Shown piece by piece: positions 3,108 through 37,343 of a stretch of DNA of 64,000 nt. The notes beneath the pieces are model-generated. The model did no database searches and had not been told where the DNA came from. It worked only from the letters and a program-made list of their open reading frames with translations. A program made the translations under genes and the position numbers. Origin of the DNA: Thermoanaerobacterium aotearoense (lineage in GTDB: Bacteria > Bacillota > Thermoanaerobacteria > Thermoanaerobacterales > Thermoanaerobacteraceae); NCBI RefSeq assembly GCF_009905255.1, contig NZ_CP047602.1, positions 682,001 to 746,000 on the forward strand, in the 5' to 3' direction. How positions within the stretch are numbered: position 1 is the first letter of the stretch; each line of letters starts with the position of its first letter.

Positions 3108-3953
3108 TTAAAAAGCTGGAACTATAGCGCCTTTGTACTTGTCTTCGATAAATTTCTTGACCTCATCAGAATTTAAGGCTTTTGCCAACTTTTGTATCGC
3201 TGGATCGTTTTGATTGTCCTCCCTTACGACTAATACATTAGCATAAGGAGAATTTTTGTCTTCCATAAAAATTGCGTCCTTTAGAGGATTTAAGTTTGCC
3301 TCTAATGCAAAATTAGTGTTTATAATGGCTAAATCCACATCTTGAAGTGTCCTTGGAAGCTGAGGTGCTTCAAGCTCTACAATTTTTAGGTGCTTTGGAT
3401 TATCTACGATGTCTCTGGGAGTCTGTGTAAGGCCATTTGGATCTTTTAGCTTGATTAGTCCCTCTTTTTGCAGTAGCAGCAGTGCTCTTCCTTCGTTTGT
3501 AGCATCATTTGGTACAGCTACTGTTGCGCCATCTTTCAACTCATCCTTTGATTTTATCTTTTTTGAATATGCGCCCATCGGTTCCACGTGCACTTTGACT
3601 AATGGGACTAATTTTACATTATTTTTCTTTTCAAAGTCCTCAAGGTACGGAACGTGCTGGAAGAAATTTGCATCGATTTGCTTGTCGACAAGTGCAGTAT
3701 TTGGCGTCACATAATCTGTAAATTCTTTTATTTCAAGATCTATGCCTTCTTTTGCAAGGATAGGCTTTACTACGTTAAGTATTTCTGCGTGTGGGTTTGG
3801 CGTTGCGCCAACGACTATTTTCGTCGTTTTATTAGAGCTATCTGCATTTGAGTTTGCATTGGATGCGGTGGATACATTGTTGGACTTTGTGCATCCTGAT
3901 AAGATAAATGCAAATGTTAATATAAGCGTGAGAAATAACAATGATTTTTTCAT
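3108..3953 (-). CDS. metQ: Methionine ABC transporter substrate-binding lipoprotein MetQ
   Basis: NlpA/MetQ-family lipoprotein of 281 aa that captures methionine outside the membrane for MetNI. The signal peptide MKKSLLFLTLILTFAF ends in the lipobox LSGC, so the protein is lipid-anchored through that Cys. The mature part begins with a Ser/Asn linker and then KIVVGATPNPHAEIL, diagnostic of the family. An in-frame Met six codons upstream (3971) exists, but AAAGGATGG is placed correctly for 3953. It is the last gene of the SAM-riboswitch-controlled metN-metI-metQ operon. Substrates could include methionine derivatives. Confidence 0.95.
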   Translation of the reverse strand: MKKSLLFLTLILTFAFILSGCTKSNNVSTASNANSNADSSNKTTKIVVGATPNPHAEILNVVKPILAKEGIDLEIKEFTDYVTPNTALVDKQIDANFFQHVPYLEDFEKKNNVKLVPLVKVHVEPMGAYSKKIKSKDELKDGATVAVPNDATNEGRALLLLQKEGLIKLKDPNGLTQTPRDIVDNPKHLKIVELEAPQLPRTLQDVDLAIINTNFALEANLNPLKDAIFMEDKNSPYANVLVVREDNQNDPAIQKLAKALNSDEVKKFIEDKYKGAIVPAF

Positions 3954-3967
3954 TACATACCATCCTT

Positions 3968-4645
3968 TCATCTTTTATCAACTTTTTTTGCGAGATAGTT
4001 TCCTATTCTTTGCACGATTTCTACAAAGATTATTAAGACGATGATTGTGGCAATAAGCACATCTGTCTGAAACCTTTGATACCCATATCTTATAGCGAGA
4101 TCTCCTAAACCACCTCCTCCGATAGCACCTGCCATAGCAGAATACCCTAAGATGTTTATCACTGTAAGGGTTATTCCCAGTACAAGCGATGGCAATGATT
4201 CTGGAATCATGACTTTAAATATTATCTGTGGTATTGAAGCGCCAACTGATATAGATGCTTCAATGACGCCCCAGTCTACTTCTTTTAGGGATGACTCTAT
4301 AACTCTTGCCACAAATGGTGCCGCTGCAATGGACAGTGGCACTATGGCTGCAGTAGGTCCTATAGTTGTGCCAACTATAAGCCTTGCCAATGGGAAGATC
4401 GCGATTATGAGAATTATGAATGGCACAGATCTCATGACATTGATCACAGTACCTAATATCTGATTTAACTTTAGATTTTCCTTTATATGACCTTTATCAG
4501 TTATGACGAGTATTATGCCAAGAGGCATTCCTATGATTACTGAGAAAAGCGTTGAGAAAAATACCATGTATAAAGATTCCCAAAGAGGCTCTTCCATAAG
4601 CTGCCACAAGTTTAACAGATATTGCAATGCATTAGACGATACCAT
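3968..4645 (-). CDS. metI: Methionine ABC transporter permease MetI
   Basis: Membrane permease of 225 aa with about five transmembrane segments. The EAA-type coupling loop is visible as EASISVGASIPQIIFKVMIPE, which contacts the MetN ATPase. It overlaps the end of metN by 14 bp, indicating translational coupling, and is followed after 14 bp by metQ. Length and sequence are ordinary for the family. Confidence 0.95.
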   Translation of the reverse strand: MVSSNALQYLLNLWQLMEEPLWESLYMVFFSTLFSVIIGMPLGIILVITDKGHIKENLKLNQILGTVINVMRSVPFIILIIAIFPLARLIVGTTIGPTAAIVPLSIAAAPFVARVIESSLKEVDWGVIEASISVGASIPQIIFKVMIPESLPSLVLGITLTVINILGYSAMAGAIGGGGLGDLAIRYGYQRFQTDVLIATIIVLIIFVEIVQRIGNYLAKKVDKR

Positions 4646-5654
4646 TTTTAAGCACCTCTATTCTAAGACCATTATTTTCTAAGAATTTTATCGCATCTTT
4701 TATGGAGTTTTCTTCACCACTTATTTTTATTAGGAGATTTCCTATTTGTGAGTTTTGCACCCTTTCGATATTTCCAGAAATGATATTAACTTCAACATCA
4801 AAATTTTTTATCATGTGGGATATGACAGGCTGATTGCTGCTGCTGTCAAAAAACGATAATCTTAAGATTTCCTCGTTTGGATTTTCGTCATCAAGCAATA
4901 TATCTGGCGGAAGTTCAGCTATCATATCTTTTAAAAATCTCTTAGACGTTTCTGTTGAAGGATTTGAAAAGATGTCTATTACATTTCCTTCCTCGATTAT
5001 TCTACCGTCTTCTAAGACTGCCACTTTGTCGCACAGATTTCTTATGACAGACATTTCGTGAGTTATCACCACGATTGTAATTCCGTATTGCTTGTTTATG
5101 TTCTTTAAAAGATTTAAAATGGATTCTGTCGTGGTGGGGTCTAAAGCGGATGTGGCTTCATCAGATAGAATTATGTCTGGGTTATTTGCTAAAGCCCTTG
5201 CAATGCCTACACGCTGTTTTTGACCTCCAGACAACTGCGAAGGATATGCGTATTTTTTGTCTTTTAAATCTACTACATCCAGCAACTCATCAACGCGCTT
5301 TTTTATGACAGAGTCGCTGACTTTCGAGATCTTAAGAGGAAATGCTATGTTTTCATACACTGTAGAGTTCATCAGAAGATTGAAATGCTGAAATATCATG
5401 CCAATCTTCTTTCTCATATTTCTCAGTTCTTTTGGCTTTAGCTTTGTCATTTCTACGCCGTTTATCAATATGCTGCCAGATGTGGGTTTTTCCAGCATGT
5501 TGATGCATCTTATCAATGATGATTTTCCTGCGCCGCTTAAACCCATTATGCCGTAAATTTCACCATCGCTTATGGTTAAGTTGATGTCTTTTAAAGCCAC
5601 TACGTCTTTTCCGCTTGTGCTGTAAACTTTGCTTAAATTTTTTATTTCGATCAA
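4632..5654 (-). CDS. metN: Methionine ABC transporter ATPase MetN
   Basis: ATP-binding subunit of the methionine importer, 340 aa. Walker A is GLSGAGKS (residues 38-45), the signature is LSGGQKQR, and Walker B is DIILSDEATSALD. The last ~80 residues form a NIL domain (VEVNIISGNIERVQNSQIGNLLIKISGEE read in pieces), which in MetN proteins binds methionine and inhibits transport when the cell is replete. It is the first gene after the SAM-I riboswitch, so its synthesis should fall when SAM is abundant. Confidence 0.96.
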   Translation of the reverse strand: MIEIKNLSKVYSTSGKDVVALKDINLTISDGEIYGIMGLSGAGKSSLIRCINMLEKPTSGSILINGVEMTKLKPKELRNMRKKIGMIFQHFNLLMNSTVYENIAFPLKISKVSDSVIKKRVDELLDVVDLKDKKYAYPSQLSGGQKQRVGIARALANNPDIILSDEATSALDPTTTESILNLLKNINKQYGITIVVITHEMSVIRNLCDKVAVLEDGRIIEEGNVIDIFSNPSTETSKRFLKDMIAELPPDILLDDENPNEEILRLSFFDSSSNQPVISHMIKNFDVEVNIISGNIERVQNSQIGNLLIKISGEENSIKDAIKFLENNGLRIEVLKNGIV

Positions 5655-13154: not shown

Positions 13155-15146
<1,992 letters not shown>

Positions 15147-15204
15147 TAAAATTAACTAAATGATGATTTTTATTAGTATTTAAGAGTTGAAAGGGTGTGT
15201 ATGC

Positions 15205-15492
15205 ATGTCAATTACAAAAGACCAAGTTATCCACGTATCAAAATTGGCGAGGCTTAAATTTTCTGATGACGAGTTAGAGAAGTTTTCTCATCAGCTTGAT
15301 AGCATTATAAAATATGTGGACAAGTTAAATGAGCTAAATACAGATGACATAGAGCCTACAGCTCATATTGTCCCAATAAGCAATGTTTTCCGTGAAGATG
15401 AAGTTGTCCCATCAATGGATAGAGAAAAAATCCTTATGAATGCTAAAGAAAAAGAAGACGGATGCTTTAAAGTGCCAAAGATAATCGAGTGA
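15205..15492 (+). CDS. gatC: Aspartyl/glutamyl-tRNA amidotransferase subunit C
   Basis: A 95-aa small subunit that stabilises GatA in GatCAB, the enzyme converting Glu-tRNA(Gln) and often Asp-tRNA(Asn) to the amides. The [18 protein letters not shown] start and DDIEPTAHI centre are family hallmarks. ATG 15205 follows GAAAGGGTG; the earlier in-frame TTG lies within the leader. First gene of gatC-gatA-gatB. Confidence 0.95.
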
Positions 15493-15502
15493 GGTGATAT
15501 TG

Positions 15503-16972
15503 ATGGAATTGCATGAGCTAACAATACATGAACTTAATGACCTTTTAAAGAAAAAAGAAGTAAGCGCTGTAGAAGTTACAAACTCGTATTTAAAAAGAAT
15601 AAATGAAGTGGAACCGAAGGTAGATGCGTTAATATGTGAAACAGCGGATTTTGCCATTAAAAAAGCCGAAGAAGCTGACAAAATGATTAGGGACGGAAAT
15701 ATAAATGACCTGACAGGTATACCTGTTGTCATAAAGGACAACATGTGTACAGAGAACATAAGAACTACGTGCGCATCGAAAATGCTTGAAGATTTCATTC
15801 CTCCTTATAATGCAACAGTGGTAGAGAACCTTAACAGTCTTGGCGCTGTAATGGTGGGAAAAGCCAATTTGGATGAATTTGCGATGGGTTCGTCTACCGA
15901 AAATTCTGCTTTTAAGACGACTAAAAACCCATGGGACTTGGAAAGAGTGCCTGGAGGTTCATCTGGTGGTTCTGCTGCATCAGTTGCTGCTGATGAATGT
16001 GCATTTTCGCTTGGTTCAGATACAGGCGGTTCTATAAGGCAACCTGCGTCATTATGCGGTGTAGTCGGCATGAAGCCTACATATGGTCTTGTATCCAGAT
16101 ATGGACTTGTGGCGTTTGCATCATCATTAGATCAGATAGGCCCTATCACAAAGGACGTGACAGATTGCGCTATTGTGCTAAATGCCATAACAGGCCATGA
16201 TCCAAAAGATTCTACCTCTGTAGACAATGTTAGAAAAAGTGATTATAAGGAATTCTTAAAAGACGAAATAAAGGGAATGAAGATAGGATATGCAAAAGAA
16301 TTCTTTAGACAAGGGCTTGACGAAGGAGTAAAAAAATCCATTGAAAATGCGCTAAAGACATTTGAGGAATTAGGAGCTGAAATAAGAGAGATAAGCCTTA
16401 AATACATGGATTACGCGCTGGCGGCGTATTACATAGTAGCGTCTGCGGAGGCAAGTTCAAATTTGGCAAGGTATGATGGCATACGGTATGGCCACGCAGC
16501 AGAAAAATACGAGGACCTTATCGACATGTACATGGTATCCAGAAGCGAAGGCTTTGGCAAAGAAGTAAAAAGAAGGATAATGTTAGGCACATACGCATTA
16601 AGCTCTGGGTATTATGATGCGTACTACAATAAAGCGTTAAAGGTAAGGACGCTTATTAAACAGGACTATGAAAAGGCTTTTCAAGATGTGGATGTAATTG
16701 TAGGGCCGACATCGCCTACGGTAGCATTTAAAATCGGCGAAAGAGTGGAAGATCCATTGGCAATGTACTTGGCTGATGTATATACAGTTCCAGTTAACAT
16801 AGCGGGACTCCCGGGATTGTCGCTGCCGTGCGGACTTTCAGAAGGGCTTCCTGTAGGTCTTCAGATCGTCGGTAAGCATTTTGATGAAGGAACGATATTG
16901 AACGCAGCATATGCATTTGAAAAGGCGTGCAATTTTACTGCAAAACCAAGTTTTAAAGGTGGTGCTAAATGA
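15503..16972 (+). CDS. gatA: Aspartyl/glutamyl-tRNA amidotransferase subunit A
   Basis: Amidase-signature glutaminase subunit, 489 aa, which releases ammonia from glutamine for GatB. The catalytic Ser-cis-Ser-Lys region is visible: Lys in VVIKDNM, and the Gly/Ser-rich [14 protein letters not shown] plus [14 protein letters not shown] 15503 is preferred, as GAGGTG at 15491-15496 sits before it. It overlaps gatB by 4 bp. Confidence 0.97.
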
Positions 16973-32876: not shown

Positions 32877-33584
32877 ATGGTTCGCAGTCTATTAAGTATA
32901 GATTGGGATTATTTTATTCCTTTAAAAAAAGAGTGGTTGAATTCATACACTGAGACACCAAGAAATATAGAGTGGATATGGTATAAAAGGCATTTAGAAA
33001 GCTCTTTGAGAGGTATTGACATAGAAAAATCAGTGTCCATATCTTTTAGTTTGGATGATTTTTGGGATAAGATAAGGGAACATTTTATCTTTGCAAAAGA
33101 CATTGAAGTATACGTGTCTGAGTCTCACATGTTGTCATATCATATAGCTATAAATAATAAATGTGAAGAAGTGTACTCTTTAGATACGCATGCTGATTTA
33201 GGATATGGAGGAATTAGTTCAACAAGTTTTAAGTTGAATTGTGCTAATTGGATGGGTAAACTGTTATGTGAAGGTTGGATAAAAAAGGCTAATATAGTAT
33301 ACAGCCATCATACGACTGAAAAGCCAGAAGACTTTAAAGATTTTAATAAACTTTTTCCGGTTAGATATTACAATGATATTGATGAATTGCCTAAGGATAT
33401 ATACACAGCAGCTATACATATATGTAGATCTGGTGCATGGACACCACCTTGGCTTGACGATGAATTTTTTAAGCTTGTAAATAATCTAAACTTGCCTTAT
33501 AAATTGATAAAACTTTACAAAAGAAAATGGAACATTAGAAAAATGCAGCTTTCAGACTTGCTTTTTTATCTTAATTTTTCATAA
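32877..33584 (+). CDS. Putative UPF0489/arginase-fold-like protein, unknown function
   Basis: 235-aa soluble protein. The start SLLSIDWDYFIP and the later SLDTHADLGYGG, with Asp and His residues in positions like those of metal-binding arginase/deacetylase folds, suggest a member of the UPF0489-type family, but the match is by eye. Later conserved-looking parts are NIVYSHHTTEKPEDF and HICRSGAWTPPWLDD. It has no signal peptide and stands alone between the TSUP permease and a terminator. If the fold is right, it may be a metal-dependent hydrolase. Confidence 0.6.
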   Translation: MVRSLLSIDWDYFIPLKKEWLNSYTETPRNIEWIWYKRHLESSLRGIDIEKSVSISFSLDDFWDKIREHFIFAKDIEVYVSESHMLSYHIAINNKCEEVYSLDTHADLGYGGISSTSFKLNCANWMGKLLCEGWIKKANIVYSHHTTEKPEDFKDFNKLFPVRYYNDIDELPKDIYTAAIHICRSGAWTPPWLDDEFFKLVNNLNLPYKLIKLYKRKWNIRKMQLSDLLFYLNFS

Positions 33585-33692: not shown

Positions 33693-33776
33693 TGGTGCGG
33701 ATGAAGGGATTTGAACCCCCACGTCAAAGACACTAGATCCTAAGTCTAGCGCGTCTGCCAATTCCGCCACATCCGC
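33693..33776 (-). tRNA. tRNA-Leu (anticodon TAG)
   Basis: Minus-strand class II tRNA: acceptor GCGGATG/CATCCGC, anticodon loop CTTAGGA, long variable arm, encoded CCA. Confidence 0.95.
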
Positions 33777-33870: not shown

Positions 33871-33899
33871 ATATACAAGTCTTTTCTATACATATTATA
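33871..33899 (+). promoter_or_regulatory. Possible sporulation mother-cell (sigma E/K-type) promoter
   Basis: ATA at 33871 is followed after 17 bp by CATATTATA (33891-33899), close to the mother-cell -10 form CATAnnnTA. A second CATAATATA at 33934 follows AC after 16 bp but is very near the ribosome site. These short patterns are common in A+T-rich DNA. Confidence 0.3.
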
Positions 33900-33962
33900 A
33901 TATATATTTTTTGTAACAAAAAAGCTATATCTCCATAATATATAGAAAGAGGGGGGATATAA

Positions 33963-34616
33963 ATGCCTAACAATATAGTTTTTAATCCAGTGGCGGAACA
34001 GTTAAAAACTTTGATTCATGGAATGCAAGGCACTACACCAACGCCTCTATTGTTAGATTCGACCACTGGAAAACTTTTGTCAACTGTTGATGGCTCTGTG
34101 ACTGTAGCAGGCACAGTGACGGCACAAGGAACTTTAACGGTTACTGCATCAAATCTTGATATAAGACCGCTAAGTGGTGCAACTGATTCTGTGACTATTA
34201 GCAGTGGTACGGTCACAGTTGCTGGAACAGTGACTGTAACTGCGTCATCATTAGATATAAGACCTCTTACTGCCTCAACTGATTCATTTACACTTGGAAG
34301 CAGGACATTCTTGGAAGACTCCACAAGCATTGCAGGTGTAACCGGAACAGGTGTTGTTTTGATGGAGAATACAGGCAACAAATCCATGTATTCTTATTAT
34401 ATAACGAATACAGGCACTAATACTATTTCCATTAAACTCCAGATAAGTCCTACTACTACTGACACCTATTTTGTTGATGACATCAATAGTATTAGTCTGG
34501 CAGGCGGATCTATTACAGTCTTGACTGCTGTGAAATTTATGCAGTATACAAGATTGTATTACGACACAGGCGGTGCCGCAGCCACTGCAGAATTTTATTA
34601 CAACGCTCAGGTTTAA
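33963..34616 (+). CDS. DUF6385-like repeat protein (Ser/Thr-rich)
   Basis: 217-aa protein with no signal peptide. After a short N-terminal part (NNIVFNPVAEQLKTLIHG) come two ~31-residue Ser/Thr/Val repeats (about 45-75 and 76-107) of the form SVTVAGTVT followed by TLTVTAS and LDIRPL, then a ~95-residue module ending YYNAQV. That module reappears at the end of the protein at 36468 (YITNTGTN vs YNTSENAA; LQISP vs LLISP; FMQYTRLYY vs FSQYSRLSY). It looks like a beta-rich structural or surface protein. The Thr-rich repeats and the glycosyltransferase next door make it a candidate glycosylation target. ATG 33963 follows GAGGGGGG. Confidence 0.8.
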   Translation: MPNNIVFNPVAEQLKTLIHGMQGTTPTPLLLDSTTGKLLSTVDGSVTVAGTVTAQGTLTVTASNLDIRPLSGATDSVTISSGTVTVAGTVTVTASSLDIRPLTASTDSFTLGSRTFLEDSTSIAGVTGTGVVLMENTGNKSMYSYYITNTGTNTISIKLQISPTTTDTYFVDDINSISLAGGSITVLTAVKFMQYTRLYYDTGGAAATAEFYYNAQV

Positions 34617-34618
34617 CG

Positions 34619-34641
34619 ATGGGGCTTTATGCCCCATATAT
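34619..34641 (+). terminator. Weak hairpin between the DUF6385-like gene and the glycosyltransferase gene
   Basis: ATGGGGC/GCCCCAT with loop TTTAT and a short T-rich tail (ATATTTT). It may be a partial terminator lowering expression of the enzyme relative to the structural protein. Confidence 0.5.
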
Positions 34642-34660
34642 TTTCGAAAGGAGGATTCAA

Positions 34661-36436
34661 ATGTTAAGCCTGTGCATGATCGTAAAAAATGAAGAGGACA
34701 ATCTTGAAAGATGCCTTAAAAGTGTTTACGACGTAGTCGATGAAATCATAATCGTGGATACTGGCAGTACTGATAAAACGGTGGAAATAGCGAAAAAATT
34801 CGGCGCAACGGTCTTCTATTATAAATGGAATAATGATTTTAGTGCAGCCAGAAATTTTTCATTAGATAAGGCAAAAGGCGATTGGATTTTGCTGATGGAT
34901 GCTGACGACGAGCTTGATGAAGATGGTAAAAAAATGATAAATGTGCTTTTGAAAGACGATAAAATTGATGCATATTTGTTTGAAACCATAAGCTATGTAG
35001 GAGATGAAGAAGGATCGGATGCTCTTTCCAACTTAAATGTAAGGATCATTAAGAATAAAGCTGAGTACAGATTTATTGGGTCCATTCATGAACAGATATT
35101 GATTTCAATATTAAATCATGGCGGAAATGTAGCAGAAGTTCCGATAAAAGTTTATCACTACGGCTATTTGCACAAAAATATCAAAGAAAAAGATAAAAGA
35201 AACAGGAACATGTCTATACTGAAAAAGGAGCTAAAAAGAGATCCAGACAATCCCTTTCACAATTTCAATATTGGAGCGGAGTACATGGCGTTGGGCGATT
35301 ATGAGCGCGCGTATAATTACTTTAAGAAGTCTTTTGATTTTTCAAAAAACATTAAAACTGGCTATACGACAAAACTGATTATCAGGATGATCATTTGTTT
35401 AAATCAGTTAAATAAGCTTGACGAAGCATTTAGTTTATGCAATGAGTCTATTGAAAAATATCCGAATGTAACTGATGTGGTGTTCTTAAAAGGCATGTTA
35501 TACCATAGGATTGGTCATTACCAAGAGGCCATAAATTGTTTTAAAAGATGCATAGAGATAGGTGAACCATCTCTTATTGATAGATTTATAGTAGGTGTAG
35601 GAGGATTTAAAGCTTACCTTGCCATGGGAGAAGTTTTTATGGATGCAAAAAATTTTGACGATGCCATTGAATGTTTTTTAAATTCATTTAGACTTAACCC
35701 AACCAATAAAGCAATACTGTATAAATTATCAAACGCTTATTTCAGCAGATACGATGAGAAGACTGCGATAGAGAAAATTGTTTCGCATTTTGATTTGTCA
35801 CCTGAAGCGTATACGATTATAAGCGATATATTCTTTTTAAATGGCAAGTATCAGCAATCGCTAAAATTTATAGACATGGCACTAAATTCACTGAAGAATA
35901 ATATAACGTATTATGTAAAGGGAAGAACATTGATGTATCTACACAGATATGATGAAGCTGCAGAATGTTTTGAAATGGTGGATGGCGGTGAATACACCCT
36001 TGATAGTCATATTAATGATATTATTTGCCGCTTGTTGATTGGAAAAAGCATTAAGAATCAAATGTTGTTGTTAAAAAAACGCTTTATAGAGGCTTATAAA
36101 GTATTTTTCAAATTGGATCTGTTGCTAAAAAAAGATGTGATATTGCCAATAGGCGTTGAAGACACTGGCACATATACAAATGTTATTTTTATTGTACTCG
36201 ACAAACTGTTTGAGATTCAGGAATTTGATTTATTTGAAAAATCGTTAAATATGCTTAATATGGTAAATGAGAAAGATGTTTTATTGAGATTGGGAAAGCT
36301 TTATTATCGGCATGGAGCGTACAAACTTGCTGAAGAAGAATTGACACGTTCTATGAAGCTATTTGATATAATCGATGAAGAAGGTATGATTATATTAAGC
36401 AGTTTGTGTGGGCAAAAGGAAGACAAAATTAGTTGA
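34661..36436 (+). CDS. GT2-family glycosyltransferase with C-terminal TPR repeats
   Basis: 591-aa soluble enzyme. Residues 1-190 form a GT-A domain: LSLCMIVKNEEDNLERCL, IIVDTGSTDKT for nucleotide binding and LLMDADDEL with the metal-binding Asp80-Ala-Asp82. Residues ~190-590 hold about seven to eight TPR-like repeats (for example GDYERAYNYFKKS, GHYQEAINCFKRC, KNFDDAIECFLNS). This GT2-TPR layout resembles protein-modifying enzymes such as SunS-like transferases, where the repeats hold a polypeptide acceptor. True start ATG 34661 after AAAGGAGG; the upstream frame is a leader. The neighbours suggest it acts on the flanking DUF6385-like proteins (inference). Confidence 0.88.
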   Translation: MLSLCMIVKNEEDNLERCLKSVYDVVDEIIIVDTGSTDKTVEIAKKFGATVFYYKWNNDFSAARNFSLDKAKGDWILLMDADDELDEDGKKMINVLLKDDKIDAYLFETISYVGDEEGSDALSNLNVRIIKNKAEYRFIGSIHEQILISILNHGGNVAEVPIKVYHYGYLHKNIKEKDKRNRNMSILKKELKRDPDNPFHNFNIGAEYMALGDYERAYNYFKKSFDFSKNIKTGYTTKLIIRMIICLNQLNKLDEAFSLCNESIEKYPNVTDVVFLKGMLYHRIGHYQEAINCFKRCIEIGEPSLIDRFIVGVGGFKAYLAMGEVFMDAKNFDDAIECFLNSFRLNPTNKAILYKLSNAYFSRYDEKTAIEKIVSHFDLSPEAYTIISDIFFLNGKYQQSLKFIDMALNSLKNNITYYVKGRTLMYLHRYDEAAECFEMVDGGEYTLDSHINDIICRLLIGKSIKNQMLLLKKRFIEAYKVFFKLDLLLKKDVILPIGVEDTGTYTNVIFIVLDKLFEIQEFDLFEKSLNMLNMVNEKDVLLRLGKLYYRHGAYKLAEEELTRSMKLFDIIDEEGMIILSSLCGQKEDKIS

Positions 36437-36467
36437 TTGTTTTGATTTTGTTTGTAGGGGTGATGGA

Positions 36468-37343
36468 ATGCCTTCTATAATTATACAGCCATCCACAAAA
36501 GATACGTCATTAGAATCGGGTTACCCAAACAGTAATAGGGGAAGTGATCCTACACTTTGGATCGGCAGGTATTACATTGGTTTATCTGGAAAATCGGTGT
36601 ACAGAGCTCTTATACAATTTGATTTAGGCATGATGCCACAAGGTTCTATTGTGGTTGAAGCTATTTTGAAGCTTTACTTCAATTATGCCACAAATCCATC
36701 AATTGCTGCATATATTACACCATTTTTGGTTTTGAATGAATGGGATGAAAATACAGCAACATGGAATAATGGGCCCAATATTGATGAAACAGTATTCGGC
36801 TCTACAAAGGCTGTGACTAAGGAGGGCTGGTATGGATTTAATATAACGAATATAGTTAATGGATGGATAAATGGCATTTACAAAAACAACGGGATATTGC
36901 TTAAAACTCCAGAAGTGCAAAACTTTGAAACAAAAAGTTTTTATTCTAAAGATGAAACAATAAACATATCTCTAAGGCCAATGTTGCAACTGACTTATAT
37001 AGAAGGATACCCATTTACGCTAAATGAGAGAAGATTTGTGAAGGCAAAGTCTACCTATACAGTATATGATGATGAAAATTTTACAGATGTGAATGATTGT
37101 TCATCATACGATAAGTATACGTACTTTGTTTATAATACAAGTGAAAATGCAGCTATAGTAAAACTTCTCATAAGTCCTGGTGATGATCTGTGGATAGAGG
37201 ATGGCAATGAAACAATTTTAGATGCCGGAAAAACAGTTGCATTAGTACCTTATTTATTTTCTCAGTATTCAAGGCTATCATATAAAAACAAAGATGCAGG
37301 AAAAGGAGCAAACATTACCGTATGGTTTGAGGCACAAGTTTAA
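36468..37343 (+). CDS. DNRLRE-domain protein with C-terminal DUF6385-like module
   Basis: 291-aa protein without a signal peptide. Residues 1-~185 match the DNRLRE/TGF-beta-propeptide-like beta domain of surface proteins: IIQPSTKDTSLESGYPN, RALIQFDLGMMPQGS, NEWDENTATWNNGP and the closing SLRPMLQLTYIE. Residues ~200-291 share the module of the 33963 product and also end in AQV. ATG 36468 follows GTAGGGGTGAT, 31 bp after the glycosyltransferase. The domain pairing suggests an outer-layer adhesin or spore-surface component; lack of an export signal fits assembly within the mother cell. Confidence 0.82.
   Translation: MPSIIIQPSTKDTSLESGYPNSNRGSDPTLWIGRYYIGLSGKSVYRALIQFDLGMMPQGSIVVEAILKLYFNYATNPSIAAYITPFLVLNEWDENTATWNNGPNIDETVFGSTKAVTKEGWYGFNITNIVNGWINGIYKNNGILLKTPEVQNFETKSFYSKDETINISLRPMLQLTYIEGYPFTLNERRFVKAKSTYTVYDDENFTDVNDCSSYDKYTYFVYNTSENAAIVKLLISPGDDLWIEDGNETILDAGKTVALVPYLFSQYSRLSYKNKDAGKGANITVWFEAQV

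Follow-up and report, generated by a model that had tools for sequence, protein, structure and literature searches.

Three tightly spaced open reading frames, designated P1, P2 and P3, are present at positions 33963-37343 of the window (the complete 64,000-nucleotide stretch that was analysed), flanked by a tRNA-Leu gene on the opposite strand (33693-33776) and a TetR gene. All three reading frames and their domains were found in the order proposed by a first-pass annotation, i.e. DUF6385-like, GT2-TPR and DNRLRE. The protein of 235 amino acids encoded upstream (32877-33584) is without a Pfam or NCBIfam match. The features of the locus are as follows.

33916..33942, + strand: candidate sigma-K-like promoter (AC-N16-CATAATATA); conserved block, consensus match only
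33963..34616, + strand: P1, repeat protein of 217 amino acids with an N-terminal MPN motif, Ser/Thr-rich repeats and a DUF6385 head
34074..34307, + strand: Thr/Ser-rich repeats of P1 (residues 38-115), proposed glycan acceptor or stalk; self-match, 0/500 shuffles
34368..34610, + strand: DUF6385 domain of P1 (residues 136-216), modelled as a jellyroll; Pfam 75 bits, pLDDT about 96, Ena1B at Foldseek rank 2
34619..34637, + strand: hairpin between P1 and P2, possible attenuator; position kept in 10 genomes
34661..36436, + strand: P2, predicted GT2-TPR protein glycosyltransferase of 591 amino acids; Pfam Glycos_transf_2 and TPRs, PDB match to GmaR, structural model
36468..37343, + strand: P3, 291 amino acids, DNRLRE/CBM96 plus DUF6385, candidate anchor; NF033679, CBM96 and DUF6385 matches
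36498..36995, + strand: DNRLRE domain of P3, one of two in the genome
37095..37337, + strand: DUF6385 domain of P3; Pfam 91 bits

Translation of P2 is likely to start at the ATG at 34661, behind AAAGGAGGA, which is preferred because the upstream ATG at 34619 falls within the hairpin of conserved position; for P3, the ATG at 36468 is more likely than the GTG at 36408. The hairpin itself, located directly 3' of P1, keeps its position in 10 related genomes while its sequence changes, and may act as an attenuator that lowers the yield of the enzyme relative to that of an abundant structural protein. Kyte-Doolittle analysis revealed no hydrophobic N-terminal segment in P1, P2 or P3 (maximum 15-residue means of 1.2, 1.3 and 0.7, respectively) and no signal peptide is evident, in agreement with the first-pass annotation.

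Repeats and head domains of P1 and P3

The C-terminal module previously noted as common to P1 and P3, in both of which it ends AQV, is the Pfam domain DUF6385 (PF19912; gathering cut-off 26.8 bits), matched by residues 136-216 of P1 (E 4e-21, 75 bits) and residues 210-290 of P3 (E 6e-26, 91 bits), the two copies having 27 identities over 87 aligned columns. P3 additionally has a DNRLRE/CBM96 domain that scores well above the respective cut-offs (NF033679, 122 bits against 34; PF24517, 74 bits against 26). The DUF6385 domain of P1 is modelled as a jellyroll with high confidence (about 96), and the 21 best PDB folds for this model in a Foldseek search include Ena1B (rank 2), Ena2A, Ena3A and Ena1C, with the insecticidal protein PirA at rank 1 and many viral jellyrolls matching also; jellyrolls are common, and the resemblance to the Ena proteins is of this general kind (target TM 0.57). 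When the P1 alignment was used as a profile against the PDB, no match was returned. No mention of DUF6385, PF19912 or the InterPro number tried was found among 5.4 million open-access papers, most subscription papers and preprints lying outside the scope of that search.

The two Thr/Ser-rich repeats formerly placed at about residues 45-107 of P1 proved to be real: residues 38-83 align without gaps to residues 70-115 (offset 32), with a score reached in none of 500 shuffles. The repeat region holds 18 Thr and 12 Ser in a stretch of 83 residues, and is modelled by AF2 with low confidence (about 50). There is no Cys in P1, and neither P1 nor P3 has a Collagen or BclA_C match in Pfam. Relatives of P1 have in common the DUF6385 head and, at the N-terminus, an M-P-N motif; their stalk repeats vary by lineage and are as long as about 1,700 residues in Thalassobacillus and Fictibacillus, where DUF6385 proteins of 1748 and 1699 amino acids consist almost entirely of GT(I/L/V)-rich repeats (L180:4033-9279 and L189:4150-9249). 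At one distant locus (L091), collagen repeats precede DUF6385. Two draft genomes hold disrupted genes, P1 being split by a frameshift in G007 (L008, L017) and P2 being in pieces with stops in G003 (L003 region); sequencing error is possible in both.

The P2 enzyme and comparison with known systems

P2 comprises a GT2/GT-A domain with an intact DXD motif followed by TPRs, the domain arrangement of SgtA, and the catalytic aspartates D33 and D80xD82 do not vary in the alignment. Among PDB sequences, the glycosyltransferase domain is most similar to GmaR of Listeria (153 bits, 9e-44), followed by SunS. In the AF2 model (pLDDT 89.7), helical repeats extend from the glycosyltransferase domain almost to the C-terminus; the closest whole folds in the PDB are SunS and ThuS, whereas the nearest folds to the TPR part alone are consensus TPR proteins and human O-GlcNAc transferase (OGT). 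The prediction, from sequence and model, that P2 is a GT2-TPR protein glycosyltransferase is thus well supported. The likeness to SunS that had been claimed at first holds for the overall fold, but not for the family: P2 scores 99 bits against a curated cut-off of 350 (TIGR04195) and its closest PDB sequence is GmaR, so membership was rejected. SunS-type S-glycosylation was likewise rejected on account of this score and the absence of Cys from P1, which also favours an O- rather than an S-linkage; a single Cys is present in P3, but no glycocin precursor is encoded on either side of P2.

GmaR is a flagellin glycosyltransferase and anti-repressor of Listeria that acts on flagellin. It is described as a glycosyltransferase in PMC3150276. 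GmaR has the same order of glycosyltransferase domain and TPRs as P2, but differs in its MogR-binding C-terminal domain and its role in flagellar control; the repeats of P2 run almost to its C-terminus and its gene is not adjacent to flagellar genes, and P2 was accordingly not assigned to GmaR.

By layout, the closest known system is SgtA-BclA3 of Clostridioides difficile, in which SgtA (a glycosyltransferase with four TPRs, 358 amino acids) adds beta-O-GlcNAc to Thr of the repeats of the adjacently encoded BclA3 (PMC7157674). The sigma-K regulon lists bclA3 (CD3349) together with CD3350, a family-2 glycosyltransferase gene beside bclA3 (PMC3789822), which from this position is taken here to be sgtA. 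Both systems have a glycosyltransferase with C-terminal TPRs, encoded beside a Thr-rich repeat protein, and a spore-surface setting, which for the present cassette is presumptive. The differences are that BclA3 is collagen-like and P1 is not, that P1 has a DUF6385 head, that the TPR tail of P2 is longer (591 versus 358 amino acids in total protein length) and that a counterpart of P3 is not described for the C. difficile system. By analogy, the SgtA assay may be regarded as a precedent for P2, not as a test of it. A SgtA-BclA3-like pair does occur elsewhere in the same genome (G000:C1:277686-279697; L198, L202), where the only close paralogue of P2, a GT2-TPR protein of 356 amino acids with 40% identity over its glycosyltransferase domain, adjoins a DNRLRE-collagen-BclA_C protein of 403 amino acids. 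The latter contains the genome's sole BclA_C domain and the one DNRLRE domain besides that of P3, and would provide the collagen-like acceptor that P1 and P3 do not. This parallel and the flagellin-side relatives described below suggest that enzymes of the P2 type travel with their acceptors.

Spore appendages were compared also. P1 resembles the Ena1/2/3 and F-ENA proteins in its similar jellyroll and N-terminal extension (the F-ENA hooks begin M-P) and in occurring in spore-forming Bacillota, and putative O-glycan densities have been seen on one F-ENA (PMC11952670); it differs in lacking sequence membership and a Cys connector. F-ENA membership was rejected, DUF4183 being present in 0 of 37 genomes of the class, the genome of origin included; assignment to the S- or L-type ENA (DUF3992) fails also, with no such Pfam match in P1 or P3, no Cys in P1 and a resemblance of fold only. 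P1 is reminiscent of the BclA exosporium nap in its layout, with a motif at the N-terminus, a Thr-rich stalk and a jellyroll as head, but P1 and P3 are without collagen repeats or BclA_C, and the true BclA_C protein is encoded separately. A spore-surface structure of the sort proposed for the cassette was not found described in the accessible literature; the SgtA-BclA3 kind of system is already known.

Gene pairing, sporulation and promoters across genomes

DUF6385 is present in 42 of 299 genomes sampled across the phylum (40 over the family cut-off), where two neighbouring copies are usual. Regions compared comprised 40 genome regions and 80 named loci, of which 113 have DUF6385 by profile, giving 114 with the window. 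The named loci are from Carboxydothermus, Desulforamulus, Desulfosporosinus, Thermotalea, Petroclostridium, Ruminiclostridium, Cohnella, many Paenibacillus, Alicyclobacillus, Fictibacillus, Thalassobacillus and Sediminibacillus, and sample DUF6385 proteins of the P1 type because they were fetched with P1-type queries. A GT2-TPR gene accompanies DUF6385 in 94 of the 114 regions, from Clostridia to Paenibacillus, and lies within 2 kb in 92 of these 94 (median gap about 70 bp, usually within 100 bp), despite there being mostly only about 0-2 P2-like genes per genome in the class at E<=1e-30. The co-occurrence on which the first-pass annotation had staked its reading is therefore clear. Like sgtA, the P2 gene adjoins that of a Thr-rich repeat protein, and the second DUF6385 protein of the loci carries DNRLRE or another N-terminal part. 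The remaining 20 regions have no nearby GT2-TPR gene, and in seven of them DUF6385 occurs solely in a protein of the DNRLRE type or another type.

Some variants of the arrangement were observed. In one metagenome-assembled genome, a P2-like TPR tail is fused to DNRLRE instead of the glycosyltransferase domain (L123:6569-8395), adjoining P1, glycosyltransferase and DNRLRE-DUF6385 genes; this may be a product of tandem duplication or of assembly. Paenibacillus cassettes have two small proteins encoded upstream on the opposite strand (L130:6624-7767 and L168:5198-6340, minus strand), with an MPNY/MTNY-like N-terminus resembling that of P1 and no confident Pfam family. One of these cassettes (L168) is surrounded by more glycosyltransferase and methyltransferase genes (3484-5065, 14546-15685), consistent with a modified glycan.

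A Thr-rich stalk is associated with an adjacent glycosyltransferase gene (0.118 vs 0.229; p=1e-6 raw, p=0.008 on 60% clusters), a correlation that is suggestive and not counted as proof because it involves only two independent changes on the tree; some P1 proteins adjoining glycosyltransferase genes are Thr-poor.

Genera of the named DUF6385 hosts are spore-forming. Among genomes at least 90% complete, SpoIVA is present in 33 of 33 with DUF6385, and DUF6385 in 0 of 38 that lack SpoIVA (p=0.007, uncorrected for relatedness); SpoIVA is missing from two DUF6385 genomes, both of lower completeness (75-80%). The genome to which the window belongs encodes both SpoIVA and sigma-K (sigK). The promoter first proposed, at 33871, did not hold up, being common only to the closest genomes, whereas conservation of the block at 33916-33942 extends further. 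There, AC-N16-(C/A)ATAATATA is conserved in the relatives of the window as a match to the consensus, not a transcript, and AACA...[CA]ATAATATATA is conserved as far as a different genus while the flanks diverge. The leader would be short, as the block ends only 20 nt before the ATG of P1. Sigma-K-like motifs, a weak consensus match, occur in 9 of 62 dereplicated P1 upstream regions compared with 12 of 310 GC-matched controls (p=0.003). Together with Thr-richness, this promoter evidence is only suggestive with regard to the function of the cassette.

Proposed function of the cassette

The explanation considered probable is that the locus encodes a protein O-glycosylation cassette, made in the mother cell and serving a spore-surface structure with a non-collagen, Thr-rich stalk. 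P2 would act in the cytoplasm as a GT-A glycosyltransferase of the type of SgtA and GmaR, and its TPR superhelix may hold the acceptor while sugar, probably O-GlcNAc or similar, is attached to Thr and Ser of the P1 repeat stalk. P1, with its Ena-like jellyroll head, would assemble on the spore from the mother-cell cytoplasm without secretion, and P3 may anchor or cap the P1 assemblies via DUF6385-DUF6385 contacts. Protein glycosylation and a spore layer, both part of the first-pass reading, are thus retained as the best supported, with the comparison to SunS corrected.

It is rather unlikely, but the most serious of the alternatives, that P2 modifies flagellin, P3 or another surface protein, with P1 as an unmodified structural companion in the operon. 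Such a role would fit the activity of GmaR, its nearest PDB sequence, on flagellin, the P2-like enzymes that adjoin flagellin or sit in flagellar clusters in genomes lacking DUF6385, and the lineages that have P1 and P3 without a glycosyltransferase. However, neither partner in the window is flagellin, the pairing of P2-type genes with Thr-rich P1 recurs in many genera, and lineages without the glycosyltransferase gene have Asp/Asn-rich, Thr-poor repeats, although this last point is suggestive only. Somewhat less likely again is a system of the vegetative cell surface or biofilm, as might be expected from the many non-spore proteins with DNRLRE/CBM96 domains and the sigma-70-like site at 33872-33901 (10/12 matches); the lack of signal peptides from all three proteins, the restriction of the cassette to SpoIVA-bearing genomes, the parallel BclA_C locus and the lower frequency of sigma-A-like motifs upstream of P1 (2/62) than of control genes (45/310) all argue against it. 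A phage-tail-like or other intracellular particle, with jellyroll fibre proteins and a glycosylating enzyme, is very improbable despite the viral jellyrolls that match the DUF6385 model, given the conserved pairing, the restriction to SpoIVA-bearing genomes, immediate neighbours without phage structural genes and the absence of P1 relatives from phage records, on which basis a phage origin was rejected.

With a spore-surface glycosylation cassette as the preferred reading, a broader proposal can be put forward tentatively, and with some doubt: DUF6385 repeat proteins may make up a hitherto undescribed type of glycosylated appendage or nap on the endospores of Clostridia, Paenibacillus and some Bacillaceae, in which the MPN peptide docks into jellyroll heads and a Thr-rich, non-collagen stalk of up to about 1,700 residues is decorated by the GT2-TPR enzyme. 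Except in C. difficile and the Bacillus cereus group, little seems to be known of outward-facing spore proteins, and the cassette, which includes a dedicated modifying enzyme, represents a concrete and widespread spore-surface candidate in genera that matter in industry and in soil. It would extend the SgtA principle, whereby the enzyme is encoded beside its spore acceptor, beyond collagen, and would offer a function for DUF6385; with only three genes, it is also a compact system for tests of TPR-guided O-glycosylation.
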